From contig NZ_CP079107.1 in the NCBI RefSeq assembly GCF_019285735.1, positions 2,108,001-2,172,000 on the forward strand: a stretch of DNA of 64,000 bases, given 5' to 3'. Source of the stretch: Paeniglutamicibacter sp. Y32M11. Lineage in GTDB: Bacteria > Actinomycetota > Actinomycetes > Actinomycetales > Micrococcaceae. This document shows positions 3,810 through 32,244 of the stretch, piece by piece (the first letter of the stretch is position 1; the number at the start of each line of letters is the position of its first letter). A program made the translations under genes and the position numbers. Under the pieces are notes generated by a model. The model did not search any database, was not told where the DNA came from, and saw only the letters and a list, made by a program, of their open reading frames with translations.

Positions 3810-4009
3810 GATTCGCTCCCTACTTGGTGGTTTGCATATGATGGTTTGTGGAAATCCCGGCGGGATCCGGGCCGATGGCCCTTTTGCAGGGGCCTCGGCA
3901 ATGTTTGGGGCCCCGCCGGCGTCGGTGGCCCAGCTGTGGCCGGCCCTCCGGGTGTACGAAGCGAACGGTCCGGCCGAATCCTCCTGAGCGTCCTTCGGGC
4001 CCCGACGCG

Positions 4010-9308: not shown

Positions 9309-10001
9309 TCACCCGAGTAGAGCGATGTCTCTGCGCCCGAAATGGGAAGACCCGGGAGCCGATCGACCACTTGCGAACGAAACGGTGTTGCCCACACGAC
9401 AAATGGCATAAGCGAGCAAGCGGTCCGTGAATGCGGCCCGGCGCTTAGGAACCCCATCGAGATTGTCTGTTTTGTTTCTGGATGAATTTCGATACTCCCT
9501 CACTGGGAAATTGTCAGCCTTGCTTGGAATGTAGGACTGTCTGGTTCTCCGGTCGGTGACCAACTCCTGAACGACGACACGGTGATGGAACCAGCACAGA
9601 GGGATCATGTGTTACGCGACCCCGGGGTAGGTGTCGTTGTACCAACTAATCCAATCGTTGAGCGGGCCCAAGATCTTGCGCCGCTGTCTTTCGGTCCCAT
9701 CCTTCTGATTCCACGGGGAAGGATCCTGAAAATCAGGGGAGCTGATCGGTTGTTCAAGATGTTTGACTAGTGCTGCCAGCGTTTTCTGCTGGTCCTGCAT
9801 CATCGTTAGCAGGTATTCGAGCTTGTTGTCATGGTCTAGGACAACTTCTTCGATCGGGTTCCCGAGTCGTCCGATGAATCTTTCGTATCCATGGCTCTGC
9901 ACCTCTGCCCTCGGGTCTTCATCTACGGGCGATAGGACAGAAAGATCTGGGTGTAGTTCGATTTCCTCATCTGTTGTCCCGTCTCATTCAACTTGGACCA
10001 T
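9309..10001 (-). pseudogene. DUF4913-like relic with two in-frame stops
   Basis: A single minus-strand frame runs from an ATG at 10001 through MVQVE, a TGA at 9984-9986, DGTTDEEIELHPDLSVLSP, a coiled-coil-like segment (KLEYLLTMMQDQQKTLAALV) and PLNDWISWYNDTYPGVA. It then meets a TAA at 9612-9614 and continues MIPLCWFHHRVVVQELVTD. The W...Y...PLCWFHH...EL pattern resembles DUF4913-type proteins found on actinobacterial plasmids and integrative conjugative elements. That family assignment is tentative; the two stops are plain. It may mark a former conjugative element here. Confidence 0.5.
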
Positions 10002-10247
10002 GAAAAGCGCGGAAGCCAGTGGAATCGCCCGACTGCGGTGCGACGAACTTGCTGCAGTTGTCTCACCACAGTCGGACCAAAACATCGAATTCAGTCACAA
10101 CATTCGGCGAGCCCGTTTGATTCGTCTCCAAGGCGCCGGACAGTCCCGCAAGCCGAACGGCGGATTCTGGCGGTCATTGCAACAGGAGGCTTCCGATCAT
10201 CTCGATCGGCTTCCTGAACTCTAGCCTGCCGTTTTCATGAAGCGGGC

Positions 10248-10270
10248 CGTCATTAAGTGACTTAATGACG
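10248..10270. repeat. 23-bp palindrome upstream of the transposase
   Basis: The left arm CGTCATTAAGT and right arm ACTTAATGACG match perfectly over 11 bases around one central G. It lies about 27 bp inside the IS end and 70 bp before the transposase ATG. The same palindrome occurs at 19293-19315 in the other copy. It could be an operator, a transposase contact site or a structure blocking read-through from outside. Confidence 0.75.
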
Positions 10271-10342
10271 AAAAGGTGCCCTGATCTGGAAAAATGGAGT
10301 TACCACACAACATTTATCAACAGAGCAGGAAGCACCTTTTCG

Positions 10343-11779
10343 ATGCTTAATGATACCCACGTTTTCCCGTCCCTTCCTGCAGCTTTGACCAGCCAGTCAC
10401 TGATTTCCCACGCCGGCCTGAACGTCCTGACCTCCTTTGTGGATGCGACCGGTTTTGCCGCCTTGTGCGAAGACCGCTTCTCCCAGTTCGTTCCCGACCA
10501 AGCCACCCACCGGCCCGGACGAATCCTCGGATCCCTCGCACTCATGCTCGCCGGCGGCGGCGAACACGTCTCGGACCTCGACGTCCTACGCAACAGCCCA
10601 GGACTCTTCGGAGCCGTGCCCTCGAATGCGACAGTGTCCAGATTCGTCGCTCGGGCCACCGAACAACCCGAGGCCTTCGCCCACGGGTTCACCACCCTGA
10701 GCCGGCGACTGCGTTCCCGGATCGGGGAGGCTGCAGGAAAACGGAACCCCGCCGCCTTGGCCACGCAGCTGGACCCCCTGACGGTGGACATTGATGCCAC
10801 TCTCGTCACGGCACACAGCGAGAAGCAAGGAAGTGCCGGGACCTACAAGGGCGGATATGGATTTTCCCCCATGATCGCGAGCATCGATTACGGTAAAGAC
10901 AACGGCACCGGGGAAATCTTGGCGGCCATGCTGAGGCCCGGCAATAAGGGCGCCAATTCGGCATCTGATCACATCAAAGTCCTCGAAGACGCACTGGCCC
11001 AGCTACCCGACTCCATGCACGACGAGCAGGGGAACCTTGATACCGCGCGAATCTTGGTCCGCACCGACAGTGCCGGAGCCTCCCGCGAATTCCTGCACCA
11101 CCTGCATTCCTTAGGGCTGCAGTTCTCCACCTCGTTCGCGCTCCCGGTACCCAACGAGCGATTCATTCACTGGATTAACAACAAGGAGCACTGGGAGCTG
11201 GCCCTGGACCAATCTGGAAGCGAGCGACATGATGCGTGGGTCATCGACGCCACGAAGGTCATCGAGCTGAAGAAATATCCCGAAGGCACTCGCTTGTATT
11301 TGCGGGCAGAACCCCTGCATCCCGGCGCGAAAGCATCACTCTTTGATCTTGACGGGCACCGGGTGACAGCATTCCTCACCAACGCTCCGCGTTACAACGT
11401 GGCGTTCCTTGATGCTCGGCACCGCGCTCGGGCCCGGTGCGAAAACCGCATCAAGACGCTGAAGAATGCCGGGCTCGGGAAACTGCCGTTCACGGCATTC
11501 GCAGCGAACCAGCTGTGGTCCGACCTGGCCGTCCTCGCCGTAAATCTGGTCTCGTGGATGCAGATAACGCTACTGCCTGCGGGCCATGCTGCCGGGGTTT
11601 GGGATATGAAGCGCTGGCACTATCGCCTATTTTCGATGGCCGGGAAGCTCATCAGCAGCGCCCGAAAGCGAAGATTGTTGATCCCCAAAGCCGCACCCGA
11701 ATCACAGCTCTTCACCACGCTGATCGAAGGATCCAGGCAGCTGCAGCACCGATGGCAAAACGTACAGCTCACGGCGTAA
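10343..11779 (+). CDS. IS1380-family transposase (copy 1)
   Basis: The 478-residue DDE transposase has the IS1380 pattern: DIDATLVTAHSEKQGSAGTY with YKGGYGF after the first acidic site, ILVRTDSAGASREFL at the second, and RCENRIKTLKNAGLGKLPF holding the catalytic Glu, then ANQLWSDLAVLAVNL. I start at ATG 10343, preceded by AGGA; an ATG at 10265 lies within the palindrome and is less likely. The product differs from the second copy at one residue (Gly in place of Trp, base 10724). Confidence 0.93.
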   Translation: MLNDTHVFPSLPAALTSQSLISHAGLNVLTSFVDATGFAALCEDRFSQFVPDQATHRPGRILGSLALMLAGGGEHVSDLDVLRNSPGLFGAVPSNATVSRFVARATEQPEAFAHGFTTLSRRLRSRIGEAAGKRNPAALATQLDPLTVDIDATLVTAHSEKQGSAGTYKGGYGFSPMIASIDYGKDNGTGEILAAMLRPGNKGANSASDHIKVLEDALAQLPDSMHDEQGNLDTARILVRTDSAGASREFLHHLHSLGLQFSTSFALPVPNERFIHWINNKEHWELALDQSGSERHDAWVIDATKVIELKKYPEGTRLYLRAEPLHPGAKASLFDLDGHRVTAFLTNAPRYNVAFLDARHRARARCENRIKTLKNAGLGKLPFTAFAANQLWSDLAVLAVNLVSWMQITLLPAGHAAGVWDMKRWHYRLFSMAGKLISSARKRRLLIPKAAPESQLFTTLIEGSRQLQHRWQNVQLTA

Positions 11780-11955
11780 CACCCACGCCACGAATAAGCC
11801 CCTTCGAAACGAAAGAACCATACCGGGAGATGGAACCCGGCACCCAAGCCAGTGATATGGCCCTATTGGTATGCCCGAAAACGGCTCAGGCCGCCGATCC
11901 CGCGAAAATCACGAAATCAACGGCCTGCCAGTAACCGATGAAAAATCGAGGCTAA

Positions 11956-17409: not shown

Positions 17410-17607
17410 TATTTCCCCAGTGAGTGTGAAAGTGACCTGAGCAACAACTCTAACAGTTGGATCTACGGGGGAACCGGAAGTGCGGGGAAGTTCCGTGTGT
17501 TCCCGGAATGTCCTTCACGGATCGGCATTTAGGAGACGCCGATGCCCGGATATATTAAAGTCCAACGTCTCTGTCATTGAGCCCGGGGCCAGGGTGCGCA
17601 GATGGAC

Positions 17608-19342
17608 TTAGCCTCGATTTTTCATCGGTTACTGGCAGGCCGTTGATTTCGTGATTTTCGCGGGATCGGCGGCCTGAGCCGTTTTCGGGCATACCAATAG
17701 GGCCATATCACTGGCTTGGGTGCCGGGTTCCATCTCCCGGTATGGTTCTTTCGTTTCGAAGGGGCTTATTCGTGGCGTGGGTGTTACGCCGTGAGCTGTA
17801 CGTTTTGCCATCGGTGCTGCAGCTGCCTGGATCCTTCGATCAGCGTGGTGAAGAGCTGTGATTCGGGTGCGGCTTTGGGGATCAACAATCTTCGCTTTCG
17901 GGCGCTGCTGATGAGCTTCCCGGCCATCGAAAATAGGCGATAGTGCCAGCGCTTCATATCCCAAACCCCGGCAGCATGGCCCGCAGGCAGTAGCGTTATC
18001 TGCATCCACGAGACCAGATTTACGGCGAGGACGGCCAGGTCGGACCACAGCTGGTTCGCTGCGAATGCCGTGAACGGCAGTTTCCCGAGCCCGGCATTCT
18101 TCAGCGTCTTGATGCGGTTTTCGCACCGGGCCCGAGCGCGGTGCCGAGCATCAAGGAACGCCACGTTGTAACGCGGAGCGTTGGTGAGGAATGCTGTCAC
18201 CCGGTGCCCGTCAAGATCAAAGAGTGATGCTTTCGCGCCGGGATGCAGGGGTTCTGCCCGCAAATACAAGCGAGTGCCTTCGGGATATTTCTTCAGCTCG
18301 ATGACCTTCGTGGCGTCGATGACCCACGCATCATGTCGCTCGCTTCCAGATTGGTCCAGGGCCAGCTCCCAGTGCTCCTTGTTGTTAATCCAGTGAATGA
18401 ATCGCTCGTTGGGTACCGGGAGCGCGAACGAGGTGGAGAACTGCAGCCCTAAGGAATGCAGGTGGTGCAGGAATTCGCGGGAGGCTCCGGCACTGTCGGT
18501 GCGGACCAAGATTCGCGCGGTATCAAGGTTCCCCTGCTCGTCGTGCATGGAGTCGGGTAGCTGGGCCAGTGCGTCTTCGAGGACTTTGATGTGATCAGAT
18601 GCCGAATTGGCGCCCTTATTGCCGGGCCTCAGCATGGCCGCCAAGATTTCCCCGGTGCCGTTGTCTTTACCGTAATCGATGCTCGCGATCATGGGGGAAA
18701 ATCCATATCCGCCCTTGTAGGTCCCGGCACTTCCTTGCTTCTCGCTGTGTGCCGTGACGAGAGTGGCATCAATGTCCACCGTCAGGGGGTCCAGCTGCGT
18801 GGCCAAGGCGGCGGGGTTCCGTTTTCCTGCAGCCTCCCAGATCCGGGAACGCAGTCGCCGGCTCAGGGTGGTGAACCCGTGGGCGAAGGCCTCGGGTTGT
18901 TCGGTGGCCCGAGCGACGAATCTGGACACTGTCGCATTCGAGGGCACGGCTCCGAAGAGTCCTGGGCTGTTGCGTAGGACGTCGAGGTCCGAGACGTGTT
19001 CGCCGCCGCCGGCGAGCATGAGTGCGAGGGATCCGAGGATTCGTCCGGGCCGGTGGGTGGCTTGGTCGGGAACGAACTGGGAGAAGCGGTCTTCGCACAA
19101 GGCGGCAAAACCGGTCGCATCCACAAAGGAGGTCAGGACGTTCAGGCCGGCGTGGGAAATCAGTGACTGGCTGGTCAAAGCTGCAGGAAGGGACGGGAAA
19201 ACGTGGGTATCATTAAGCATCGAAAAGGTGCTTCCTGCTCTGTTGATAAATGTTGTGTGGTAACTCCATTTTTCCAGATCAGGGCACCTTTTCGTCATTA
19301 AGTCACTTAATGACGGCCCGCTTCATGAAAACGGCAGGCTAG
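17608..19342 (-). mobile_element. IS1380-family insertion sequence, copy 2 (inverted)
   Basis: This is the second 1,735-bp copy, in the opposite orientation to the one at 10221-11955. Its ends are TTAGCC on the left and GGCTAG on the right. The proteins differ at one residue; the causal base is 18839 (Trp codon here, Gly in copy 1). Such near-identity implies recent duplication or ongoing gene conversion. No short direct repeat flanks it. Confidence 0.88.
17784..19220 (-). CDS. IS1380-family transposase (copy 2)
   Basis: The protein is 478 residues, identical to the copy 1 transposase except that RSRIWEAAGK replaces RSRIGEAAGK. The catalytic motifs (DIDATLVTAHSEKQ, RTDSAGASREF, ENRIKTLKNAG) are unchanged. 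The start at ATG 19220 is chosen as in copy 1. Whether the Gly/Trp change affects activity cannot be told from sequence alone. Confidence 0.93.
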   Translation of the reverse strand: MLNDTHVFPSLPAALTSQSLISHAGLNVLTSFVDATGFAALCEDRFSQFVPDQATHRPGRILGSLALMLAGGGEHVSDLDVLRNSPGLFGAVPSNATVSRFVARATEQPEAFAHGFTTLSRRLRSRIWEAAGKRNPAALATQLDPLTVDIDATLVTAHSEKQGSAGTYKGGYGFSPMIASIDYGKDNGTGEILAAMLRPGNKGANSASDHIKVLEDALAQLPDSMHDEQGNLDTARILVRTDSAGASREFLHHLHSLGLQFSTSFALPVPNERFIHWINNKEHWELALDQSGSERHDAWVIDATKVIELKKYPEGTRLYLRAEPLHPGAKASLFDLDGHRVTAFLTNAPRYNVAFLDARHRARARCENRIKTLKNAGLGKLPFTAFAANQLWSDLAVLAVNLVSWMQITLLPAGHAAGVWDMKRWHYRLFSMAGKLISSARKRRLLIPKAAPESQLFTTLIEGSRQLQHRWQNVQLTA

Positions 19343-19574
19343 GCTCTCGACCTGCTGCTGGAGACTCCACTCTGCGCAGAAACAAGCCATGATAGCGGTG
19401 TAATTATCGTATCCACCATGGAGTGGCTAGGACGCGGCGCCCGCACCGCCCGGTCTTATCCCCGACCCGGCAAGGCGCGGCGTTGGACCCGGAAGCCATC
19501 AAACCCAGTCCAGTCTTCATCGGACTTTGCCACGCCGCCAAATCCTATGCCACAAGATGCCCAGCAGGCCAGAT

Positions 19575-19784
19575 CTAGCTATCCGTGTCTGGATGTATGC
19601 TCCGTGTTTCTGTGCGCCGGTTCCGGCCATGGACCCAGTCGGAAGGGTAGATCTTCGGCAGGATCTTAGCGACGGACAGTGCCGCATACATTAGGGTGTT
19701 GATGGCCACAAAGGTTGCCCATACGGCAAACCATTGGCTGTGTAGCAGGGATTCGGGAAGAACTAACCCGGCGGGTAGTGCCAT
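19575..19784 (-). CDS. Small membrane protein coupled to the glycosyltransferase
   Basis: The protein is 69 residues with one clear transmembrane helix (about 17-36, FAVWATFVAINTLMYAALSV) and a basic C-terminal tail rich in Arg. Its ATG at 19784 lies one base after the stop of the glycosyltransferase gene, so the two are translated together. The arrangement resembles synthase/helper pairs in polysaccharide export systems. That role is inferred from position only, and the protein itself is not recognised. Confidence 0.7.
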   Translation of the reverse strand: MALPAGLVLPESLLHSQWFAVWATFVAINTLMYAALSVAKILPKIYPSDWVHGRNRRTETRSIHPDTDS

Positions 19785-19785
19785 T

Positions 19786-21225
19786 TTATGATCCGTCCAC
19801 TTTCGCTTCGGCGTTTGCTTCGTGCTGCAGATGCGTCCATGCCGCCCGGCGGCCCGTGGCACTGTCGATGATGCCCTTGACATATACCAGATTCAGGTAC
19901 ATGTCGAAGCAAAGTTCTGGGATCAGCAACGCTGCCAGCAACCGGGCACGCCACCCACCTTTCCACACGGTGACTATACGTTCAATGGTGAACACCGCCC
20001 CGAGTCCGAGCCAGAACGGGAACCATATCCAGCTGTCCAAAGCCAGGGCCATGACGAGCAACAGCGCCAAGTACGAGAACAGAGCAATGACCCCATAACC
20101 GATACCCAGCTGCTGCGCCCAATAGCGCAGGGTTTGAGGCGTCATGCCATAAGCACCGAGGTTTTCCAGCGCACCTCGCTGCCAACGCAGGCGTTGGTTC
20201 CACAGCGTGCGCCAGGTCGGCATCAGTTCCGTGACGACTGTGCATTCTGAAGGGGAGACTGTCAAGGCACCGAGCGATTTCAATGCAATTGTCAGTTCGT
20301 TGTCTTCGGTCAGGGCCGCGGTGTCATAGACGTCTCCGGGGATGCCCGGCAGCGCCTTTCCTCTGTTAGCAGCTACTTCGCGCAGGGCAACCGGCCTAAA
20401 CAACGAGGCGGTACCCGTCAGGACGAATACTCTGCCGCGACGGCGCTTCAACTCGCGCGAATACCTGATGTACTCATTGCGTTGGAACTGCCCGATCAAC
20501 CCGTGCCCAGGTTCCCCATGGAACAGACCACCAACGGCCATCAGCGCCCGGTCGTTGGCGAAGCGTGAAGCGGCCGCTTCTAAGAAGCCATCATCAAGCT
20601 GGGTATCCGCATCCATGATCATGACAAGGTCGTTGTCGCCCTGGAAGGGAAGAATTCTCGACAGCACCTGGTTCAGGGCACCGGCCTTCTTATCGGCGTT
20701 GCCCACGCTTGGTATGACTTCAACACCGCGTTCCGCGGCGATGCGCTCTGTGCTGTCGGTGCAGTTGTCCGCCACCACGATCACTCGCTCGGGCGGGTGG
20801 GACTGTGAAAAGAGCGAGTCAAGTGTGCCCGGAAGTGATGCTTCTTCGTTATGCGCCGGAAGCAGGATGGTGATCGTGATGGGGCCCGCAAATACGCCCC
20901 GGGTCTTGTTCATGATCAGCTTGGGAGCCAGCGGAGTTGCCATGACGTTGCCGGAGCGACGATAGCGAGTGGCGATTCGCCGCTCGACAATGGCGATGCC
21001 GGCTGCCAGCAAAAGTGCCAGCGCGATGGCCGTGTACATGATGGATCGGTCGGGGGCCTGGGTATCGTAGAGGATACTCCACAATCCCAAAAACGTGCCA
21101 CGTGAGGTGGTTCCCGCGTCGACGTGCATCTTGGTGGCCACGGCAAACATCAATAGGGATGCGGCAACAACGACCACCGCGGCGATCAGGACACCTGCCC
21201 AGCGGCTGAAATTCGTTTTGTTCAC
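19786..21225 (-). CDS. Membrane glycosyltransferase, family 2
   Basis: The protein is 479 residues. Two N-terminal transmembrane helices (about 10-30 and 62-80) precede a cytosolic GT-A domain with ILLPAHNEEASLPGTLDSLF, a VIMDADTQ-type DxD site near residue 205, TEDNELTI, and the QRLRWQRG motif of processive enzymes. Two or three further helices follow (about 375-440). This layout is shared with N-acetylglucosamine polymerases and hyaluronan/cellulose synthase relatives, so it probably builds and extrudes a surface polysaccharide. The product is unknown. The start is GTG 21225. Confidence 0.87.
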   Translation of the reverse strand: MNKTNFSRWAGVLIAAVVVVAASLLMFAVATKMHVDAGTTSRGTFLGLWSILYDTQAPDRSIMYTAIALALLLAAGIAIVERRIATRYRRSGNVMATPLAPKLIMNKTRGVFAGPITITILLPAHNEEASLPGTLDSLFSQSHPPERVIVVADNCTDSTERIAAERGVEVIPSVGNADKKAGALNQVLSRILPFQGDNDLVMIMDADTQLDDGFLEAAASRFANDRALMAVGGLFHGEPGHGLIGQFQRNEYIRYSRELKRRRGRVFVLTGTASLFRPVALREVAANRGKALPGIPGDVYDTAALTEDNELTIALKSLGALTVSPSECTVVTELMPTWRTLWNQRLRWQRGALENLGAYGMTPQTLRYWAQQLGIGYGVIALFSYLALLLVMALALDSWIWFPFWLGLGAVFTIERIVTVWKGGWRARLLAALLIPELCFDMYLNLVYVKGIIDSATGRRAAWTHLQHEANAEAKVDGS

Positions 21226-21791
21226 ACATGGAAGCCTAATCTAGTCCGACGGTTTTCTTTGAAGAAAAAGTGACTATGAGCAGTACGTATACAAAAGACG
21301 GCACGGAACGTTATATATGTCGTGGGGCAGGGCCGCGATCGTTTCTTATTTGAGTGGCCGCCGGTTTGCATATGCCATCGACCAACTGCATGTGATTTCC
21401 AAGAGGCGGGCACTGACGCAAGACCACTGCCAGAGCCTTGGTTGGGAATCTGTCTTCGCTAGGGACGCCCGTGGGCCGCGCTACACGGTTTGTGCGCGGA
21501 GGAGCGGCAGCCGGTGGGCAATCTCCGGGCTGTCTTCAGCTTTCAATGGATGAGTGGGCAAGTATTGACAACGAGAGCCGGTGGATCAGCATGATGGTCT
21601 AGGATGGAGCCGCCGGACGATGGAGATCCTTGTCAAGAGTTTATTGGGCTATGAAAAGCGACGGAAAAAAATGCCGGCCATTTCGCGAAGATGATTCGAG
21701 GTCCTGCCCCTTAGGCACACGGACGCAGGGTTCCGTTCTCCGGTGAAAATTCGCCATGTTAAGAATTTCGATAAGAGGGGTGTGATGGCCG
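21226..21791. other. Intergenic region between divergent genes
   Basis: The 566 bases separate the glycosyltransferase from the RsbQ-like operon, so promoters of both must lie here. It is more AT-rich near 21230-21330 and 21640-21780. I see no gene, hairpin or repeat that I can support. Confidence 0.5.
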
Positions 21792-22607
21792 ATGGTCTCT
21801 GGTGCAGCAGTGAGAAACAATGTTCAGGTTTGTGGGCCGGAGGATGCTCCAGTGTTGGTTTTCGCCCACGGATTCGGCACCGACCAGAGCATGTGGGGAA
21901 AGATTCTGCCTTGGTTTATCGAGCACTATCGGGTGGTCCTGCTTGACCATGTTGGCTCAGGGGGCTCGGACCAGTCCGCCTACGATTCGGCTGTGTATTC
22001 TTCGCTTGACGCTTACGTGGATGATCTCATGGCGGTTTGCGCTGAACTTGATTTGGTGGATGCGACTCTGGTCGGCCACAGCGTCGGAGCCATGATGGCC
22101 ATCAGTGCGGCCTGCCAAGATCAAGGGCATCGCGTGGCCCGTCTCGTGCTGCTCACGGCCTCGCCTAGCTATCTCGACCACCCCGAAGATGGTTACGTGG
22201 GAGGGTTCACCCCGCAGGATATGGAAGATGTCTTCGAATCGCTGGACGCCAATTACGTCGAATGGGCCGAGGCGATGGCCCCGGTCTACATGAACACGCC
22301 AGACATGCCACAACTTGAGCACGATATCCAAGGCAGCTTCGGCCGGATAAAACCCCGCGTAGCACGCGACTTTGCCCGGGTGGCTTTCCTCTCCGACGTC
22401 CGGCACCTGCTAGCCGAGGTCAGTGTTCCGGTTCTGGTCCTGCAAGCCTCCGATGACGTCGTCACCCCGGAGCATGTGGGAACTTATCTGGATGAGGCTC
22501 TACCGATCAGCACGTTGGTCCGGCTTGCGGCCTCCGGCCATTTCCCGCAAGCTAGCGCACCGGAAGAAACCGCCACCGCCATCCTCGAATACCTGAATCG
22601 GGCATGA
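21792..22607 (+). CDS. RsbQ-like alpha/beta hydrolase
   Basis: This 271-residue hydrolase has FAHGFGTDQSMWGKILPWF (oxyanion loop), the nucleophile elbow GHSVGAMM (Ser near residue 97), an acidic residue in VLQASDDVVTPEHV and the His in ASGHFPQASAPEET. The opening matches the RsbQ / KAI2 / D14 branch of small hydrolases. Bacillus subtilis RsbQ pairs with the PAS protein RsbP to sense energy stress. Here the next gene starts inside this stop codon and encodes a PAS protein too, so the same input pairing is likely. The ligand is unknown. Confidence 0.87.
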   Translation: MVSGAAVRNNVQVCGPEDAPVLVFAHGFGTDQSMWGKILPWFIEHYRVVLLDHVGSGGSDQSAYDSAVYSSLDAYVDDLMAVCAELDLVDATLVGHSVGAMMAISAACQDQGHRVARLVLLTASPSYLDHPEDGYVGGFTPQDMEDVFESLDANYVEWAEAMAPVYMNTPDMPQLEHDIQGSFGRIKPRVARDFARVAFLSDVRHLLAEVSVPVLVLQASDDVVTPEHVGTYLDEALPISTLVRLAASGHFPQASAPEETATAILEYLNRA

Positions 22608-23626
22608 GTCTGGGCTCTGCGGCGAACAACGACTACGCGCGCCTCTTCCACCACGCACCTGCGGGCTACCTCGTGGTTGGCACTGATGGAACCATCCTCT
22701 GCGCCAACGCCACGATCTGTGACTGGGCCGGTGTGGGGTCCGGAGCCCTTGAAGGTCGTCCCCTGTTTGATCTCATGCCCGCCGGAGACCGGTTCATGTT
22801 TCGGACACATGCCGGGCCAAAGCTGGACCGCGATGGGCACCTGGCCGAAATATCGATCGAATTGCTCGGGTCCGACGGTCAGCGCAAACCGGTGCTGCTA
22901 TCGGCGAACCGAATCATCGACGGCCCGCAGGTACGGGACCTGATGATCTTTTTTGCCGCCCCCGAGCGACGGCGATACGAGCGCGAGCTTGCCAATGCGC
23001 ACCGTCAATTGGAGGACGCCGAGGCAGGGCGCACACAGCTGCTGGAGGAAGCGCACCACAGGGCTCTCCACGACCCATTGACAGGACTGCCGAACCGGCT
23101 GAAACTCGAAGAAAGCCTGCTCAGTGCCCTGGCCCGCGCCGGCGAAGAGCGCACCCGGGTGGGCTTGTTGTTTTGCGATGTCAACAACTTCAAGCAGGTG
23201 AACGACACTCTGGGCCATGCTGCCGGGGACCTGGTCCTGAAACACATCGCTCGAAGGCTTGCCGAGGCAGTGCGGGGCGCGGACACCGTTTCCCGTGTCA
23301 GTGGCGATGAATTTGTGGTGCTGTTGCCCCTGCTCCGGGATCCGAAGGAGCTCGAAGCGGTCGCCACAAGAGTTCAGGAGAGCGTGGCTGGCACCATCAC
23401 CGTTGTGGGAACCGAGATCCAAGTGGGTATTTCCGTGGGCCGGGCTGAAACCGTTGTTTCGGCAGCTGCCGGAACGTTCGAGCATCAGGAGCTGGCCAAA
23501 ACACTGCTGATCACCGCAGACCAAGACATGTATCGGGTCAAGACGGAAATGCGAATGGTTCCGCCGCTCGAGCAGCCGTTAGGCCCGACGCCAACACCTC
23601 CAGGATCCCGTAATAATCGTTACTAA
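22604..23626 (+). CDS. PAS-GGDEF putative diguanylate cyclase
   Basis: The protein is 340 residues. A PAS domain spans about residues 10-120 (HHAPAGYLVVGTDGTILCAN), then a coiled coil (about 122-152) and a GGDEF domain (about 155-315) with DPLTGLPNRLKLEESL, CDVNNFKQVNDTLGHAAGD and the signature VSRVSGDEFVVLL. The active-site loop is SGDEF rather than GGDEF, a variant found in some active cyclases. It would make c-di-GMP under control of the PAS domain and, by analogy with RsbQ-RsbP, the upstream hydrolase. ATGA overlap at 22604 couples the two genes. Confidence 0.9.
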   Translation: MSLGSAANNDYARLFHHAPAGYLVVGTDGTILCANATICDWAGVGSGALEGRPLFDLMPAGDRFMFRTHAGPKLDRDGHLAEISIELLGSDGQRKPVLLSANRIIDGPQVRDLMIFFAAPERRRYERELANAHRQLEDAEAGRTQLLEEAHHRALHDPLTGLPNRLKLEESLLSALARAGEERTRVGLLFCDVNNFKQVNDTLGHAAGDLVLKHIARRLAEAVRGADTVSRVSGDEFVVLLPLLRDPKELEAVATRVQESVAGTITVVGTEIQVGISVGRAETVVSAAAGTFEHQELAKTLLITADQDMYRVKTEMRMVPPLEQPLGPTPTPPGSRNNRY

Positions 23627-23717
23627 ATACCACCCATCTCAACTCAAGGTGTTTAACGACCCACATCGGAGTCTGTGAGGCAATTCAACATAATTTCAAA
23701 TACCGTGACGTTGTTAA

Positions 23718-25136
23718 TTACGACCAATGGACCCAATCCTTGGACGAAGTTGTGGGCCGACCAAGCAGGTACCCCTGCCCCGCATCCATGCCCAAGGACC
23801 TGACGGAGGCAAGTTCATCTTCGGTCTCGATTCCCTCCGCGATCAGGACGGCGTGAATCTGGCCAGCGAAGCCCACCATTGCAGCTCCCAAGGCCCGCTG
23901 GGCCTGGTCCTTGTCAATACCGGCGATGATGTTCCGATCCAGCTTAATGAGGTCCGGCCTGAGCTGAAGGATATGACGCATGGAAGCGAACCCGGCACCG
24001 GCGTCGTCAACGGCGATTCGCAGGCCTCCGGCCCGCAAGGATTCCAAAGCCGCGACGAGCGGAACATAATCGTGCACCGGTTCACGTTCGGTAATCTCCA
24101 GCACGATGCGTCCGGCATCGAGCCCCGATCCGTCAATAAGCCCGGCAAGTCGCTGGTCTAGGCAGGCCTCTGGCGATAAATTCACAGACACATACAAGGA
24201 GGATGGCACCCCGATCGCTGCCCTGAGCGCCGTTTCAAGCGCCATGATTTCCGCGTCAACCCCAACCCCGGACAAAGCTGCCTGGGTAAAGAACTCCTGC
24301 GGTCTCATCCCGGGTGTTCCTGGAAACCGAGTGAGCGCCTCAACCCCAATAACGGCACCTGTTGGCAGCGAGCGGATGGGTTGGAACGCCGTCAGCATGC
24401 GGCCGCTGGCAAGAACTGATTGGATCAGGGCCTTTGTCTCCTGAGAGGCGGGCGTTTCTTCTGCCACCGCAGATAACGTGCGGGCTGTTCCCTCGAAGCC
24501 GGCGTTCTGCCCGCTTCCGTTGCATACGGCCCTGAAGGAGAACTCCACCAGGATCCGGCGTCCGTCGCGATGCCGACAGGTGGTGACCAGCCCGGAGCAA
24601 CTGGCCCCGCGGTTGTCTTGGTGCTTCGTGTTATTCAATGCCGCGGACAGATCTCCCGGGTCGAGGATGAGGTCGAGAGGTCGGCCCAATAGTTCTGACG
24701 GTTCGTAACCGAGCAGATCCCGACTCGCCGGGCCACAAAATGTAAAGCTTCCATCCGTGCCGGTGACCCAGAAAAATTCCTGTGTTGTGCTCAGCCAGGT
24801 GCCCATCAGTTCCGCCGTCCTGGATGCTTCAGCCCGGTCCCTGCGCTGCTGGCATGCAGACCGCCAGACGGCGTACAGGACCAAGGGAATCATCACCAAC
24901 GCAAAGAGCTTCAAAGCCCAATAAGCACCTGAGAAGGCAATCCACGGTCGATTTCCGAAAAGCATGGGTCCGCGAATGGATAGCGCTACAAGGGCATCGA
25001 TCCCCACGATCACCATCAGCCATCGGGCGGGCCACGATGGCGTGGATACTCGATACCACCATGAAGGATTGCGCGGTACTGGTTTTCGCCTCCGTCGTGG
25101 TGCATCACTCCGGCGGCCGATCGTCATATGTTTCAT
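23718..25136 (-). CDS. Membrane PAS-EAL putative c-di-GMP phosphodiesterase
   Basis: The protein is 472 residues. Two transmembrane helices (about 35-55 and 70-95) precede a PAS domain (about 110-210) and an EAL domain (about 235-470). The catalytic set looks complete: GVEALTRF, NLSPE, LEITERE, VDDAGAGFASM, PDLIKLDRNI, AEGIETEDEL and GQGYLLGRP. It should hydrolyse c-di-GMP. I start at ATG 25136, with AAGG 9 bases upstream. It is convergent with the PAS-GGDEF gene 91 bases away, so maker and breaker sit side by side. Confidence 0.9.
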   Translation of the reverse strand: MKHMTIGRRSDAPRRRRKPVPRNPSWWYRVSTPSWPARWLMVIVGIDALVALSIRGPMLFGNRPWIAFSGAYWALKLFALVMIPLVLYAVWRSACQQRRDRAEASRTAELMGTWLSTTQEFFWVTGTDGSFTFCGPASRDLLGYEPSELLGRPLDLILDPGDLSAALNNTKHQDNRGASCSGLVTTCRHRDGRRILVEFSFRAVCNGSGQNAGFEGTARTLSAVAEETPASQETKALIQSVLASGRMLTAFQPIRSLPTGAVIGVEALTRFPGTPGMRPQEFFTQAALSGVGVDAEIMALETALRAAIGVPSSLYVSVNLSPEACLDQRLAGLIDGSGLDAGRIVLEITEREPVHDYVPLVAALESLRAGGLRIAVDDAGAGFASMRHILQLRPDLIKLDRNIIAGIDKDQAQRALGAAMVGFAGQIHAVLIAEGIETEDELASVRSLGMDAGQGYLLGRPTTSSKDWVHWS

Positions 25137-25663
25137 GCGCTGCACCTTCTACACGCGATCCACCACGGTTTCCGCCCCGGATGGCCCAACGCCACGAATG
25201 TCGGGCATTTCAGGCCCTCGGACCATCCTGCGAAAACCGTATTTAGGCAAAACATGTTCCCATGGTGCCACCCGAGCACCACAGGCAGCGTCATTTGGAG
25301 GGAACCGGCAGCGGTGTCTTGGATATTTTTGCCCACCTCACTTCGGGTGAGGGGCCATGTCCACATCAAGCCAGACACTTCGATACAGCCATTCGCTCCG
25401 CAAAGCAGCGCAGATGCCTTCGAATTATCCTCGCATAGTCTGAAAAAAGGCATTTTGCTCGTTCGTTCTCGGCCGCGGAGTATCGCATTGAAGGATCCGC
25501 TATCGGAACGCACCTGGGCCTGACCTGAATGTTCGAGTTTTCTTGGATTCACAGGAAAGTCGAGTGTTCCGTAAGCCCCGTCCGGTGAAACGTCCGGTGA
25601 TGGCGCGGGCCCTATACGGGCACAATTCGAATCGCGTCCAAAATCTTTCTTCGGGAGATCGTT
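25137..25663. other. Intergenic stretch between PAS-EAL gene and tniQ
   Basis: The 527 bases have no supported gene. A short CCTCAC/GTGAGG hairpin lies near 25336-25352. I searched here for the 21-bp repeats of the Tn7-like end in either orientation and found none, so the second transposon end is not in this gap. Confidence 0.5.
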
Positions 25664-26548
25664 TCACCTGGATCTGGGCCGCAGTTTTGTGTCGGAAACT
25701 GGTTGTCCTGATGCCCAGCTCGTTTCCAACCATTGACGTAGTGGGTCCGAGGCTCCCTGGGGTTTCCAACCGTCGGTGATTTCGTGGCTGACCCGCTCAA
25801 GAAAAACCTCGGGGTGCGGCGGGTAGGCGATGCGCCTCCAAAATGGTGACGCGATCGCGGCGGTCAGCATGATCACCGACGGGTAGAGCGCAGCCGCCAC
25901 GAGAGCTTGAGTGTTTGCCTGTCGGGGGAGTGCTGCTGCCAGACCGTCATAGATGCCCGCAGCCGCGGAGAAATGCAGGAATTGCTCGTGCCACCTCCAG
26001 TTGATGGCGTCGGCTGCTTCGAACCCCACGCGGACCTGCCGGTGTCCGTGTCTGGTGATGAGGTTCTTGTGGTGGTGCCAAGGCATAGTGATTTGCGGCC
26101 AGTCGCGCACGCTGAATTGGTCGGCAATCCCTGCTACGCCTTCACCGATCCAGAGTGAATGCTTGGGGCAGATGACGCGCTCGTGGGTGGTGTAGATCTC
26201 TACGTAGGATCCGGCTCCGTGGGCCAACGCGCAGCGATGACAGGCCGGGGTATGGATCTTGCGCACTGGACGGCCAGTGAGTTTCTGCCTGAGCTCTGGC
26301 TCTGGGTGTATGCCAGCCAATTGTGGCATGGCCAGCATCAGGATTTCTGGCTCGGTCTCTGTCCACTCAGAGAGGTTGTATACCCATGGCCGGCGTTCCC
26401 TCCAGAGGATCTTCAAGAGTCCGCTCTGGCGAAGTACATTTGCGGCGCTGATGCGCCTGATATACGAGCGAGTGGTTTCGTCCATATACGGGCGCACCAG
26501 TATGGGAAGCGGACGACCGCGCGCTGGGTCTTGCTGGCGCTTGGTCAT
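25664..26548 (-). CDS. tniQ: TniQ/TnsD-type target-selection protein
   Basis: The 294-residue TniQ-family protein opens with PLPILVRPYMDETTRSYIRR and has a zinc-binding pattern CHRCALAHG…HERVICPKHSLW (about residues 100-133). TniQ/TnsD proteins bind the target site or a targeting partner and recruit the AAA+ regulator TnsC. Its ATG overlaps the tnsC stop by 4 bases. Its length suits a short TniQ, without the long DNA-binding tail of Tn7 TnsD, so it may need another factor or a simple target. Confidence 0.85.
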   Translation of the reverse strand: MTKRQQDPARGRPLPILVRPYMDETTRSYIRRISAANVLRQSGLLKILWRERRPWVYNLSEWTETEPEILMLAMPQLAGIHPEPELRQKLTGRPVRKIHTPACHRCALAHGAGSYVEIYTTHERVICPKHSLWIGEGVAGIADQFSVRDWPQITMPWHHHKNLITRHGHRQVRVGFEAADAINWRWHEQFLHFSAAAGIYDGLAAALPRQANTQALVAAALYPSVIMLTAAIASPFWRRIAYPPHPEVFLERVSHEITDGWKPQGASDPLRQWLETSWASGQPVSDTKLRPRSR

Positions 26549-27566
26549 GGCAGTGTGTGGTTCGCTGCCGACGCGTGGGGTGCGAGCGATTGTGCGGCGT
26601 GATCGATCCAGATCTCGTCCAGCCGGGCTCGGTCTATTTGTTCGGTGCCTTGGAGGATAGCCAGGATCGCTGCCTCACGGATGAGGTGGGAGAGGCTGCT
26701 GATGCTGCCGCCGGTGCGGTGGTGCAGGTATTGGGTCTGGGAGGTCAACGTTCCGGGTTTGTGGTTGTGGAGTCGCAAGCCGTTTTCGAGTGTGGCCACG
26801 AGAGAGTCCCATTCCTCGGTTAGCGGGAAGGGTCCGGTGGTCATCAGCACGGATCTGGCGGAAATTTGCCGGCCTCGCAGACCCGTGAACAGCCCGGAGT
26901 TTTCGACGTTGATGCCTGCGTAGATGAAAGTGGCGGGCATATGTTCGGCGAAGTATTTGAGGTGGTCTGACATGTCTTCCCCGGCACTGGTCGCGAGGTT
27001 GAGGTTGTGGATTTCATCGACGATGACCAGATCGGTCCTGGCCGTAGTCAGTACCTGGCAGACGGCGTCGGCGATGTCGGTGACGTTCTGCCTGGGGCGT
27101 TGGGGGAGGCCAAGGAAGTTCGCGAATTCGCTGGCTAGTTTCCTGGGGGAACCTTTTGGGGGAGTGGTGATGTAGACGACGGGGATCCTGTCCCGCTGGG
27201 TGGGATATTTCCGCTTGATCAGCAATTCGTGGGTCTTACCTAAAAGTTTGATTGCGGTGGTTTTCCCAGATGCCCAGGGGCCTGAGACGACCAAGCCGCG
27301 TCGGGCGCTAATCTCTGGTTGAGCATAATCAGCAGACGGCCCTGGGTAGTGATCTGGCGGACTGTGGATGTTTCAACGATAACCAGCTCGGAGTGGTAGC
27401 TGATGCGCTGTTCGTTGTAGGCCTCTCGCTGGGCTGAATCCATCGCAGCGAGAACCTCCGCGCTTGATACCTCGATGGTGGGCGCAGGCGAGGTGACAAA
27501 GTTTCGCCACCCCTGCAAGGTGGTGGTCGGGGGCCTACTGCTGCTGGGGAGCTCCGTCGTCACCAT
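26545..27566 (-). pseudogene. tnsC: TnsC/TniB-type AAA+ ATPase, frameshifted
   Basis: The N-terminal part reads from ATG 27566 (MVTTELPSSSRPPTTTLQGW to QGRLLIMLNQ). The rest is in another frame, from ISARRGLVVSGPWASGKTTA onward to 26545. Walker A is GPWASGKTT, Walker B LVIVDEIHNL, and the C-terminal half has RTGGSISSLSHLIREAA as in TniB/TnsC proteins. The break lies at about 27311-27316, where one missing base (CAG-AG-ATT) explains it. TnsC links target protein and transposase, so loss would stop regulated transposition. A sequencing error is the main alternative. Confidence 0.8.
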
Positions 27567-29668
27567 TTTTCTGCTTCCTTATGCGCATCGTAGATTTTCA
27601 ATGGGATGATTTTGGCCAACTGCGCGGGGCCTTGCGGCGATTTCACTTCGGAGTGTTCTTCCGTTTTAATCGCTGCTGCAGGTTTCTGTGCTGGATCGTT
27701 TGCCCCGTCAAGCATCGGTCGTGCACGTTGGGAGGTGATGGCGGCCTTGTTGCGGGCCGCTGCCCGCTGGTTCTTTTTGGCTCGTGAAGCTGGTTTGGCC
27801 GGCGGTGAAGCAAGATCAAGGATTGCATCCACAGCAGCCTTAATGGTGTCTTGGGAAGGGTGGCTGGTGCCACGTTCGGCCACGATTTGTCGGCCATACT
27901 CCCAACTGGCGTCACCAAATGGTTGGGGGCTGGATTGCAGCTGTTTCCAGTACGCGATGATCCAGCTGCCGTTCTCGGGATTCCTGACCCAAACACACCC
28001 GGCATCGTAGGGATTATATTTGACCTCCCACCGCCGGTTGAGGGCTTTCAGCCCAGATCTCTGGCCACGGTAGGGATTGAGCTCTTCCGAATCGTAAATG
28101 CGGTGCCGGATCTTGACCCCATAGCTGTTGATGACCCTGCTTTCAGAGGGCATCAATTCAAGATAGTCCGCAGCCGTCAACGGAACGGGAACTTACCCAG
28201 CCAATAGCAGCAGGGCTGCGTATTTCTCGTTCGGCGTCAGCACCCTGAACGGCGTAAAGGGATCCCTCAACCCATCATGAGGCCGGTTTTGCCATCCGGT
28301 GACTATCCATTCATCCAGCAGGTCCTGAATTTCCAGCAGTGAGAACACGGCCCGCTGTTCAGCGTTCTTGCCGCGTCTTTCAACGGATGAACCAAGATAT
28401 CCGGTGACGTATTGGGCGAAAAGCGTGCCGATGGATTGAAGGGTTCGCTCGATGACAGGCTTATCGGTCGGTGTGTCGGGGTGAGCCCTTTGGAGGCTGA
28501 TACCCAGGCTGCGGCAGGCATTCTTGAATGTGTCGGAGATATAGGCTTTGCCGTGGTCGCAAACGATCGTTTCCGGGACGATCACAGGTTTCGCGGCCGC
28601 GCCTGCGAGTCGTTCGTCGATGGATTTCATGGCGCGATAGGGAAGTGCAGAGGCAGCCATCGAGGCCGCTTCTGCCCAACCGGGGCGGTTGAGTTCAGGT
28701 GTCATACAGCGGGCCAAAAGCAGTGCAGCATCCGCGGCCTTGGTGGTTGGGCGAATAACTGCCGCAGGCAGGCTTCGGGTGGCGATATCGACCATGGCCG
28801 TTAACTCGACCCTGCCAATAACGCCATCGTCAAGTTCGACAGCGATATCAAGCGGTGTCGAATCAATTTGCACCAACTCTCCGGGCCTGACCGGGTAAAC
28901 AGCACGGAAAGGGCCTGAAGGCTGTTGCGCCAGAGTTCGTCGTGTTCGGGCAGATCCTGTTGCGTGGCGTCCCTCCGCCAGCCTGCCCACCAGCCGATGG
29001 AAGGTTGACGACGAAGGCATGGGAACGACCCCGTCACCGTATTCGGTGTCGAGTAGTTTTCTCACTTGGCGCATCAAACGCCCGGTGGTTCCGGATGATT
29101 CGAGAGCATTTTGCTCAAGGACTTCGAGCAGCGCGTCAAGAACCCTCTGATCGGTTTGCCCGGCGATGGGCACCTGACGAATCAGCCGCTGGTCCACAAG
29201 CCCCAAGATGCCTTGTTCGAGATAGGCACGCCCCAGTCGCTGAAGCTTGCTTAAGCTGAGGTCTTCACCGAGCTCAAGGAGCTCCGCGTGTTTGGCCAAC
29301 TCACGTTGCCGCAGGGACTTGAGACGTACATCGTACGCAGGACGAGGGAATACTTCCGGGGCCGAGCCGGAAGCAACACCATCAAGCACTTCGGTGATGT
29401 GTTGTTCCATCCACCGAGCTTTGACTTTAACGTCATCCGGTAATGAATCAAATACTCGTGATTGCCCAACGACCCTGCGACGCACCGCAGTGGCATCGAG
29501 AACCTTGAAGCTTTGGTCGGCAAAAAGCGAACCAATCTTGACTGCTATCGGAGGCTCGCCGGTCACAGTCAAGATCGCTACATCGCCGTCCAACCCGGTA
29601 AGTCGGTACTCGATGCCGTGAAATAGAATTCGATTTCCAAGGCGTACCGACAGGGTCCCATTTTTCAT
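27560..29668 (-). pseudogene. tnsB: TnsB-type DDE transposase with one in-frame stop
   Basis: A single frame of about 702 codons encodes a Mu/Tn7-type transposase. The rve domain holds QIDSTPLD (first Asp), IVCDHGKAYISDTF (second Asp) and PVIERTLQ (Glu). Then comes a TAA at 28193-28195 in LLLLAG-stop-VPVPLTAADY, followed by the Mu C-terminal barrel (NSYGVKIRHRIYDSEELNPY). Relatives have Tyr in this GYVPVP motif, so TAC or TAT became TAA. The truncated 491-residue product would lack the C-terminal domain that contacts TnsC. All catalytic residues remain. Confidence 0.85.
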
Positions 29669-30432
29669 GGTTTCTCATGCACCTCGATCACGGACTCCAG
29701 GCAAAGGGGAGTGGTGAGCAGATCGGCGGCGATTCGGTGCTGCCAGATCAAATGAAACACCGTGGGCACGACACAAACAGGATCGCCCAAGGAGGCCACC
29801 AAACTCCGTATTTGATGGGGGCCCTTGGACTCGAGATAGGCCAGGACTTCCGTTCCTACATCTTCTCGGTAGCATCTCGGATGCCGATAGCCCGCAATCC
29901 AGCGCAGATTCGCGGCATGAATCACGGCCAGATACCCAACCCTTTGATAGCCCCAGCCGACGGAAGCACACAACGCAGCAGTCGCCTCAAACACCGCCAG
30001 ATCCGCCTCCGTGACCAGTGTGTCAGGGCGAACGTCGATCACCACAGCGGTGCCATCAGCATTGCGAACGAAAAAGTCAGGTACGTGTGAATCCTGCGGC
30101 GCGGAGGCCGGCAAGCTGATCCTAAACGGCTGGGAGGCCACGCCTGTCACCTCGGGCTCGAAATCCAGTCGCATGAGTCGGTCACGTTCGCACCAGGACT
30201 CAAAACCAACATGACGCAGATTCGTTGCGCACCACCACAGGCCCACAAAATTGCGTTGCCCCTTGAAAGCCGAAAGCCTACGGATCGGCAGGGCATCCTC
30301 AAACGGGATCATCCAGGAGGCTGATAGCACTCCGGTGGTGGCGGCATACGAGAATTGCGCCCTGTAGCTCAGGGTGCCCTCGACAACAGATTGCTCGGCC
30401 GCTATTTCGGACAGAGCCTGCTGGTGGCCCAT
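29665..30432 (-). CDS. tnsA: TnsA-type endonuclease of a Tn7-like element
   Basis: This 255-residue protein has the TnsA nuclease pattern: FESWCERDRLMRLDFEPEV (active-site Glu), VPDFFVRNADG (Asp) and AVVIDVRPDT. TnsA cuts the 5' strand at transposon ends so that TnsAB moves by cut-and-paste rather than copying. The frame is intact. The ATG (30430-30432) overlaps the first 21-bp repeat of the transposon end, with no clear ribosome site, so binding of TnsB there probably represses the operon. Its stop overlaps the tnsB start by 4 bases. Confidence 0.85.
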   Translation of the reverse strand: MGHQQALSEIAAEQSVVEGTLSYRAQFSYAATTGVLSASWMIPFEDALPIRRLSAFKGQRNFVGLWWCATNLRHVGFESWCERDRLMRLDFEPEVTGVASQPFRISLPASAPQDSHVPDFFVRNADGTAVVIDVRPDTLVTEADLAVFEATAALCASVGWGYQRVGYLAVIHAANLRWIAGYRHPRCYREDVGTEVLAYLESKGPHQIRSLVASLGDPVCVVPTVFHLIWQHRIAADLLTTPLCLESVIEVHEKP

Positions 30433-30598
30433 GCTTCAACTGTAATGACAATGGGGCGACAATGCTCCAACTGTAATGACAAATTTTTGGCAGATGCGTC
30501 AACTGTAGTGACAAAATTCAGCGTGATGAGTCAACTGAAATGACTCCTGACGACCTAATGCGTCATTCTAGGTGAGAATGCTTCAACTTAGATGACAA
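30431..30598. repeat. Transposon end with phased 21-bp repeats (probable TnsB sites)
   Basis: Five same-direction copies of ATGC-K-YCAACTG…ATGACAA start at 30431, 30462, 30494, 30526 and 30578. A degenerate sixth (14 of 21 bases) starts at 30558. The steps are 31, 32, 32, 32 and 20 bases. Read from the outside the last copy begins TGTCATC near 30597, the kind of terminus used by Tn7/Tn5053 relatives. Regular three-helical-turn spacing suits TnsB binding on one DNA face. Confidence 0.85.
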
Positions 30599-31035
30599 AG
30601 GACACAAATCGCGGGCAGCCTAGGGGTGGTTGAGGAGGGGTCCCAAAACGCTACTTGACATAATGTAGATTATCGGCGAACTGGATACCTAGCTGAAAGT
30701 GGTGATTTTCGAGTTTTTCCAGATTGATCCTAAGCTCAAGTTTTCATGTTCTGACGGATGATTTTGCCCTAATTTCGGGGCGTTGCGTCTCCGGAGCTCG
30801 AACGAACTTTGATTTTTCCCTCACGCGTCAGCTGGCCGACCGAGGGTCGATCGCTGGTTCTGGATTCGCGAGGCGCAGGAGATTGACGGCCGGCGCAATA
30901 GATAGGCTCGAAATCACGAAGTAACTCTGGGAAATCCTGTCTCCCACCCGGCTGTCCGGTAGATAATAATGACTTGACATAACTACTTTGCGCCTAGTTT
31001 TGGCACTTGCATAGTTATTCAGGGAAACTCGATGT
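30599..31035. other. Intergenic region between transposon end and zapE
   Basis: About 430 AT-richer bases hold no gene. The 11-mer ACTTGACATAA occurs twice (near 30653 and 30972), each containing a TTGACA -35-like hexamer. An ATAACTA…TAGTTAT inverted repeat lies between about 30978 and 31018, just before the zapE start. These probably belong to the zapE-def promoter. Confidence 0.5.
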
Positions 31036-32244
31036 ATGTCATCACCCAAACCGTTCGACTGGAATTCAACTCTCCAGACATCGAGCCGACAGCAAGGCGA
31101 CGAAATGCTGCGCGCCATCTCGGCCCAAGCAGCATCCGATGCTCTGGATCTCGATGTTAGCCAGCTTGAAACGATCGACCTGCTGATCGGTAGCGCTCTC
31201 AGTCATCTTGATCCCGCGCATGGCTCCCCCGACAAAAACAACGTTTATCTCTGGGGTCCGCCAGGGCGGGGTAAAACCTGGCTCGTTGGCGCATTTTTTG
31301 AGGCTCTGCCGACTCAAAGCAAGCTGCGGGTTCACTTTCACGACTTCTTCAGAGACCTGCATGCCATGGCACACAAGGCCACCTTCGACGCCATGAAAGA
31401 CATCGAAATCTCTGACACGGTGGGTGAGAAACGTGGAAATCCCGATCGTGTTGCTGCACGCACCAGTGCGATTGAACGATCCATCCACAGCATCCTGGGC
31501 AACGTGGAGGTACTGTGCTTCGACGAGTTCCATTGCAACGATCCCGGCGACGCCATGTTGCTAGCCCGCACGGTGAAGTACATCGTTGATCGCGGCATTT
31601 TGCTGATTACCACCTCAAATTACCCACCGGAGGAACTGCTCGCCGACGAGTATTATCACCATCTGGTTATGCCGACGATTGCCATGATCCGCGGCGAAAT
31701 GACGGTTCATGAACTCGATGCTCAACGCGACTACCGAACCCTCAATCGTGCCGAGGATGAGCGTGTGGGTTTCAGCAGGGGAAACGTGCTGCATTCCTGG
31801 GATGTGGAGGTTCTTGCAACCCGCGGCCTGGTGCAACCGGAGTCCAACGAAGCAACCTTCCTGACACCGACAAGCCACCAGATCAGGGCGCTACGGATTA
31901 CCGATCGGCAGATCTGGTTCAATTTTTCGGACCTCTGCGAGGCGTTAACCTCAACGCTGGACTACCTGAAACTCGCTCAAGACTATGACCACTGGATCAT
32001 CTCCGATGTACCGAGTGCCGAGCGGATGACACCCTTTGGACTACGCCGGATGGCCAACGCCATAGACGTTCTTTATGACCAGCAGATCCGGCTCGATCTG
32101 ATTACTGCGGAAAACTTCACCGATTCCTTTACCCAGCTGCCAGAACTCGAGGCCGCCCGGTTGCACAGCCGCATCAACGCCTTGAATCCCGCTCATGACC
32201 ACGCGCCCGCCGCCATCACCACCCTGGAAGGATCCGAAGTATGA
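31036..32244 (+). CDS. zapE: ZapE/AFG1-like ATPase
   Basis: This 402-residue AFG1-family P-loop ATPase has Walker A GPPGRGKTWLVGAFF (about residue 75), LRVHFHDFFRDLHAM, Walker B VLCFDEFHCNDPGDAML and a sensor-like LLITTSNYPPEELL. ZapE acts on cell-division proteins in E. coli; AFG1 relatives help remove damaged membrane proteins. AGGGA precedes the start. The stop overlaps the start of the peptide deformylase gene, an unusual pairing that suggests joint function at nascent or membrane proteins. Confidence 0.88.
   Translation: MSSPKPFDWNSTLQTSSRQQGDEMLRAISAQAASDALDLDVSQLETIDLLIGSALSHLDPAHGSPDKNNVYLWGPPGRGKTWLVGAFFEALPTQSKLRVHFHDFFRDLHAMAHKATFDAMKDIEISDTVGEKRGNPDRVAARTSAIERSIHSILGNVEVLCFDEFHCNDPGDAMLLARTVKYIVDRGILLITTSNYPPEELLADEYYHHLVMPTIAMIRGEMTVHELDAQRDYRTLNRAEDERVGFSRGNVLHSWDVEVLATRGLVQPESNEATFLTPTSHQIRALRITDRQIWFNFSDLCEALTSTLDYLKLAQDYDHWIISDVPSAERMTPFGLRRMANAIDVLYDQQIRLDLITAENFTDSFTQLPELEAARLHSRINALNPAHDHAPAAITTLEGSEV

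Follow-up and report, generated by a model that had tools for sequence, protein, structure and literature searches.

What is the regularly spaced array of 21-bp direct repeats found next to a tnsA-like gene of Paeniglutamicibacter sp. Y32M11, and why does it stand where it does in the chromosome? The array was analyzed within the window, a stretch of 64,000 nucleotides (NZ_CP079107.1, positions 2,108,001 to 2,172,000), and compared with related loci from other genomes and plasmids. Coordinates are those of the window, unless a locus is named.

Organization of the repeat array

The original prediction placed five clear copies and one degenerate copy of the repeat at 30431, 30462, 30494, 30526, 30558 and 30578, in steps of 31, 32, 32, 32 and 20 bp, and took them for the end of a Tn7-like element. 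All six copies are present at these starts, with these steps; in the degenerate one, at 30558, the match is restricted to the outer parts. A repeat search of the window recovers five copies (spacings 31, 32, 32 and 52), and a core pattern drawn from the array gives five array matches with 0–2 mismatches. When up to 3 mismatches are allowed, the pattern finds six matches in the window, against 1.15 expected, a number reached in 0 out of 100 shuffles; the sixth match, at 48128, is unrelated to the array.

The copies, all read on the minus strand, are numbered here from the outside as candidate TnsB sites. Site 1, the terminal one (30578..30598), comes from the repeat search and has the same position in relatives; site 2 (30558..30578), degenerate in the window and 20 bp inward, corresponds to a conserved second site in relatives. 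Sites 3 (30526..30546, 32 bp inward of site 2), 4 (30494..30514), 5 (30462..30482) and 6 (30431..30451) are repeat matches, 4 and 5 being found in relatives also. Site 6, the innermost, contains a -10-like hexamer, TACAGT, and overlaps the tnsA start codon (30430-30432), as had been claimed, by two bases of the ATG (30431-30432).

The element extends farther than the prediction had it: it continues for 6 bp past the last repeat, up to 30604, where TGTCC begins on the minus strand. This outer terminus (5'-TGTCCT, 30599..30604, minus strand) is defined by the start of the alignment with L105, a locus from the same genus, and by homologous TGTCCT ends, found in the same register in L009-L012, L091, L101 and L176-L179. 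Between 30604 and 40624 the identity of L105 with the window amounts to 94.3%, and left of 30604 two short matches only are found. The same spot in L105 is occupied by a decayed relative of the element, whose end is 2 bp nearer to the dif site described below: the break at 30604 is therefore the edge of the element, give or take a base or two, and not an empty site.

Ten right ends were compared for their register. Sites recur 8, 28, 60, 92, 124 and 155 bp from the terminus: those at 8 and 28 bp are present in nine ends out of ten (L015 lacks a site at 28), and the 31-32-bp steps continue in eight (window, L101, L102, L011, L012, L091, L009, L010). Recognizable copies range from two, in the decayed L101b, to six, in the window and L101; the third site of the window, overlooked by the pattern used for the register scan, is in register when the arrays are compared. 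Since the TGTCC terminus, the 20-bp step and the 32-bp steps recur in relatives, the layout is a family trait: it does differ from that of Tn7, as originally pointed out, but is not peculiar to the window copy. When relatives are searched and their ends aligned, the close ones end at the same place, with the array present; no homologous end lying elsewhere, and no absence of the repeats beside related tnsA genes, was found among them.

At the left ends of L009-L012 and G766, inspected by eye, a terminal site is followed, about 50 and 80 bp inward, by an inverted and a direct site, respectively. In these five loci (L009, L010, L011, L012, G766) both ends feature site arrays and TGT...ACA termini.

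Genes and state of the window copy

Leftwards from the array, on the minus strand, the gene order is tnsA-tnsB-tnsC-tniQ. The tnsA-like endonuclease gene (29665..30432, 255 aa) matches NF033179 above the cut-off (E 1.1e-71) and, below the respective cut-off, the N-terminal TnsA family of Pfam. tnsB is split into a first piece of 491 aa (28193..29668), with an rve match below cut-off, and a second one in another frame (27560..28180), with a Mu-transpos_C match above cut-off. The tnsC gene, coding for a TniB-like ATPase (26545..27294; TniB, E 1.4e-14), has its N-terminal part in another frame. tniQ (25664..26548, 294 aa) is assigned by alignment and by a TniQ match just under the cut-off (E 2.8e-5; 25.2 bits, cut-off 27). 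Against solved TnsB chains, the TnsB of the relative L101 reaches a best E of 2.9e-9; against solved TniQ chains, the TniQ profile reaches an E of 0.0015. The Tn7-like set is thus found: TnsA, a TnsB with DDE and Mu C-terminal domains, a TnsC AAA ATPase and TniQ. Together with the TGTCC terminus and the same array register beside related tnsA genes, these homologues bear out the identification of a Tn7-like end.

In most relatives tnsB and tnsC are single open frames, so that the window copy, where both are frameshifted, looks decayed; it is probably no longer mobile, though the split frames may instead reflect a programmed frameshift.

A left end of the transposon family, TGTCCCGTCTCA followed by inner sites in the order usual for the family, is located by end scans at 9975..10080, on the plus strand. 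Its sites read GTCTCA, not TTGTCA. Comparison of the flanks shows that CAAAT, the 5 bp just outside the right end (30605..30609), where a target duplication is expected, has no copy beside it, TCTGT being found at 9970-9974. The reading of 9975-30604 as one 20.6-kb element was dropped, given the different site sequence and the lack of a common duplication; the left end at 9975-10080 probably belongs to another, older stacked element. Profile and TGTCC scans of the window found this end alone, and none attributable to the window element itself. L105 and L176 are homologous to the window down to 25493 only, so the left part of the element has probably been lost or replaced.

GGDEF, EAL-PAS and hydrolase genes, which may be either cargo or chromosome, occupy the region left of tniQ (21792-25145). 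Elsewhere in the window, two inverted IS1380 copies (10221-11955 and 17608-19342), 99.94% identical, enclose an amidohydrolase gene and an AbgT-type transporter gene, in an arrangement resembling a recent composite transposon.

The neighboring predicted dif site

About 50 bp outside the element end, and absent from the original prediction, lies a predicted chromosomal dif, TTCGCCGATAATCTACATTATGTCAAGT (30653..30680, minus strand), with its XerD-type arm nearer to the element. The prediction comes from genome and family scans and from the predicted Frankia alni dif; its 20-bp core (30655-30674) was used for all gap measurements. In the 4.17-Mb genome, one exact copy of the core is found (2138655 of 4173408), and one further place with 3 mismatches. 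At one mismatch or less, the core is present in 144 of the 149 family genomes, a few of which have two such places; a control scan with the backward pattern gave 0 among the rows listed.

The predicted F. alni dif is quoted in PMC3025954: according to our own comparison, 24 of the 28 bases are equal in the window dif. The half reading TTATGTCAAGT is the XerD arm, by the labeling of the Acinetobacter dif in PMC10132070. A serine-resolvase site was also considered for this motif and rejected: the single exact copy, the spread within the family and the likeness to a published dif indicate dif. The site is presumably the working dif of the host. In one survey, tabulated in PMC3025954, a dif is predicted for nearly every bacterium with a single chromosome; according to the same paper, none from Actinobacteria is experimentally confirmed.

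Element ends beside dif in other genomes

tnsA matches number 78, in 62 genomes. In 21 genomes, the start of one such match is separated by 63-354 bp from the dif core, on the side of the XerD arm; these matches share the strand of dif, and all 21 genes read away from it; none of the remaining matches lies within 5 kb of dif. These other 57 (16 on the same contig as dif, 39 on other contigs, 2 in genomes where dif was not found) indicate that other targets exist in the wider TnsA family. Four of the 16 same-contig matches are on the same strand, downstream and less than 70 kb away (5.2, 7.5, 49.8 and 67 kb), a placement expected of stacked insertions.

The ends themselves were searched at 28 dif loci, within 140 bp on the XerD side, mismatches being counted by hand. 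An end is recognized at 23 loci, 37-71 bp from dif: 17 ends have at most one mismatch (gap 39-71 bp), six have 2-3. In the same 140 bp, no end is recognized at five loci (L103, L095, L100, L185, L186), a decayed one being visible by eye in L103. The gap varies between loci; the window and L105, as well as L178 and L179, are not independent. The genomes of L009 and L010 contain further ends at 54 and 75 bp from dif, the former being the L009 end, the latter a copy resembling that of L010.

Ends, or end-like sequences, are found on the XerC side of dif at L013, where a tnsA end faces dif, L076 and L087, indicating that the choice of side is not absolute. The last two come from a control of 30 dif loci not picked by tnsA (the first 30 listed of the 149 genomes), in which ends are seen in three: L089, on the XerD side, and L076 and L087, with end-like sequences on the XerC side. 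No tns genes are detected at these three loci by tblastn; tnsA-like remains are visible by eye at L089.

Across 12 diverse target loci, dif is the sole clearly conserved sequence: the dif blocks score 1.34 and 1.47 bits, the block with the first dif bases 0.72 and the other blocks 0.15-0.37. Insertion is thus oriented, at a conserved attachment site, with the exceptions of L013, L076 and L087. Relatives in other Actinomycetota lie equally close to their dif, which is therefore likely to be the landing pad of the family. The array is, in all probability, the right end of a Tn7-like element: its repeats would be TnsB sites, and the element would have been placed 50 bp from the predicted dif by TniQ-dependent dif targeting.

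Two further features were noted at the target loci. A near-palindrome similar to CATCTGATG is seen by eye in L011, L091, L012, L015 and L097, in the stretch that separates the end from dif and some 20 bp away from the latter. A tyrosine-integrase-like gene (L011 8331-8948; Pfam match below cut-off) lies on the XerC side of dif.

Possible mechanism of dif recognition

Two minimal elements, L101 (10066-15145) and L177 (791-5757), have space for tnsABC and tniQ alone: from the end of tniQ to the left terminus there are about 175 bp in L101 and about 100 bp in L177. The L101 element is inserted exactly at the end of an older element, which means that this spot was used twice. With no room for a fifth gene, the reading of dif would fall to TniQ together with TnsC, whether or not the host XerC/XerD take part.

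In the proposed mechanism, TnsB would bind the 21-bp repeats, while TniQ with TnsC would recognize dif, probably at the time when XerC/XerD occupy it. A possibility that deserves serious weight, if short of an even chance, is that TniQ alone binds dif DNA, without XerC/XerD. TniQ is the sole targeting-type gene in the minimal elements, and the TnsD of Tn7 reads its site directly, as stated in PMC8649781. Against this, profile and structure tests, weak as such tests are, demonstrate no DNA-binding domain in the short TniQ: its predicted structure is of low confidence (pLDDT 61.7), and Foldseek with this model returns nothing at E < 0.001, the two best hits, both TniQ, having E 0.92. Tn5053-family elements, moreover, reportedly sense res sites when these are occupied by resolvase (Minakhina 1999). 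This precedent, and the fact that ends occur on both sides of dif, itself nearly palindromic, make us lean towards a dif occupied by XerCD.

A broader hypothesis can be put forward tentatively: Tn7-like elements of actinomycetes might form a widespread class of 'dif hunters', in which TniQ senses dif occupied by XerC/XerD, transposition is tied to dimer resolution at division, the terminus becomes a stacking site for islands, and plasmid relatives hunt other recombination sites.

Alternative explanations

The element may have an ordinary Tn7-like end and the terminus may act as a permissive hotspot, with dif not being read. Terminus regions tolerate insertions, and stacked insertions are indeed seen there (G870, G766). 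A hotspot, however, does not account for the narrow gap, the single orientation in 21 adjacent cases and the lack of any clearly shared sequence except dif; about 0.01 adjacent matches are expected at random (78 x 600 / 4.2 million), against the 21 seen. This explanation is very improbable.

Even less credit can be given to the idea that XerCD, and not TnsAB, moves the elements, which would then be dif modules or integrating Xer elements. Xer-using elements and dif modules rely on XerCD recombination for their movement and contain dif-like sites; the adjacency to dif would fit such an origin, but the only exact dif of the window genome lies outside the element. No dif copies on both sides of an element are seen in this genome and in the loci examined. 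Perfect 5-bp target duplications, in contrast, are present in five of the seven elements with both flanks readable (GCGCC in L011, TCCAC in L012, GTTGT in L101, ACGGC in L177, CGGAT in L013), and with the TGTCC ends they are marks of a DDE transposase. The two without duplication are the inner element of G766 (17452-22985) and the pairing 30604/9975.

The region before tnsA raises the question of its regulation. Out of 15 right ends, 10 by raw count (window, L009, L091, L010, L011, L101, L102, L104, L176, L187) have a TANNNT hexamer 6-8 bp upstream of the ATG of tnsA. In L177 the hexamer precedes an ATG that is not necessarily the start codon; none is found at the listed starts of L012 and L015, and L178 and L182 have no listed start. 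The innermost site includes the hexamer in the window, L010 and L011, the TACAGT of the window being 6 bp before the ATG. A sigma-70 consensus scan of 30300-31100 finds no promoter; leaderless transcription is common in Actinomycetota. TnsB bound to the innermost site would repress tnsA, and such autorepression is plausible, judging from the sequence. A role of the repeats solely as operators of tnsA, with no transposon end involved, would agree with the overlap of the innermost site with the tnsA start and the -10-like hexamer, but is scarcely believable for an array that abuts a synteny break and has a TGTCC terminus, with similar sites at left ends.

Relation to known systems

With Tn7 and Tn7-like transposons the dif elements share tnsA, tnsB, tnsC and tniQ, arrays of about 20-bp sites at both ends, TGT/ACA termini, a 5-bp duplication and oriented insertion beside a conserved chromosomal site. 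They differ from Tn7 in the right end, where one 20-bp step followed by 32-bp steps replaces four overlapping sites, in the inverted middle site of the left end, in the neighboring site, which is dif and not a gene, and in the absence of cargo from two elements. Tn7-like transposons are modular targeting machines, whose known attachment sites are mostly gene ends, RNA genes and guide-RNA targets; guaC, yciA, ffs and rsmJ are those named in PMC11406308.

The nearest precedents are IS1202-family insertion sequences beside dif (PMC10132070) and Tn5053 at res (PMC11406308, PMC8649781). The IS1202 family (ISAjo2 group), as described in PMC10132070, similarly features a TnsB-like transposase, TGT ends, a 5-bp duplication and a single orientation beside dif, and is also found beside pdif. 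It has, however, one transposase gene and lies 5 bp from the XerC arm, in Acinetobacter, whereas the elements described here, from Actinomycetota, feature TnsABC and TniQ and are mostly found past the XerD arm, at a distance of 39-75 bp; the window copy has four genes and is 50 bp from the XerD-type arm.

The Tn5053/Tn402 'res site hunters' are similar in that a single TniQ directs them to the site at which a site-specific recombinase acts; according to PMC11406308, Tn5053 is without TnsA, has its own resolvase and targets the resolution sites of Tn3-family elements. The dif elements, unlike Tn5053, have tnsA and neighbor a tyrosine-recombinase site, and L101 and L177 leave no space for a resolvase gene. 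Xer-using mobile elements and dif modules (PMC10132070) likewise occupy dif or dif-like sites; the signature of DDE transposition and the single dif set the present elements apart. A literature search, with most subscription papers and preprints outside its reach, found no account of Tn7-like elements at dif.

If the proposed reading is true, a four-gene, dif-reading element would be a compact new targeting module. It would tie the targeting of transposons to XerCD and the machinery of division, and would help to account for the way in which islands are stacked at the terminus of these bacteria. As for the ends, their 20/32 register would provide a simple, testable code.

Lineage and plasmid relatives

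A TnsB tree of 40 rows, 16 of them labeled as dif elements (including L013, on the XerC side, and L010, beside a decayed dif), requires three changes of the label, against 6.3 in shuffles; one shuffle out of 500 is as low. Two fully supported groups, of ten and five rows, consist entirely of dif elements, with the exception of L009, which was unlabeled in the tree and was fitted to dif by the later end measurement (54 bp). Three rows have long branches, and the deep joins are therefore unsure. The dif elements perhaps belong to the Actinobacteria-dominated clade 2 of Benler et al. 2021 (PMC8649781).

Plasmid members fall between the dif groups; of the 189 records with a match, seven are plasmid relatives. 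On these seven and on L014 only dif-like strings with 4 mismatches are present, as expected by chance, indicating the absence of dif. In L172, a Rhodococcus plasmid, the element adjoins two site-specific integrase genes, with a tyrosine-integrase-like stretch at 3201-4996; no integrase is annotated in the other six plasmid stretches, where gene tables are incomplete. In the mycobacterial plasmid elements L170 and L171, CCGTCACWGTGACGAA is seen by eye outside the right ends, upstream, and is perhaps a plasmid target. One Rhodococcus plasmid, L173, carries two related elements head to head and a third one downstream.
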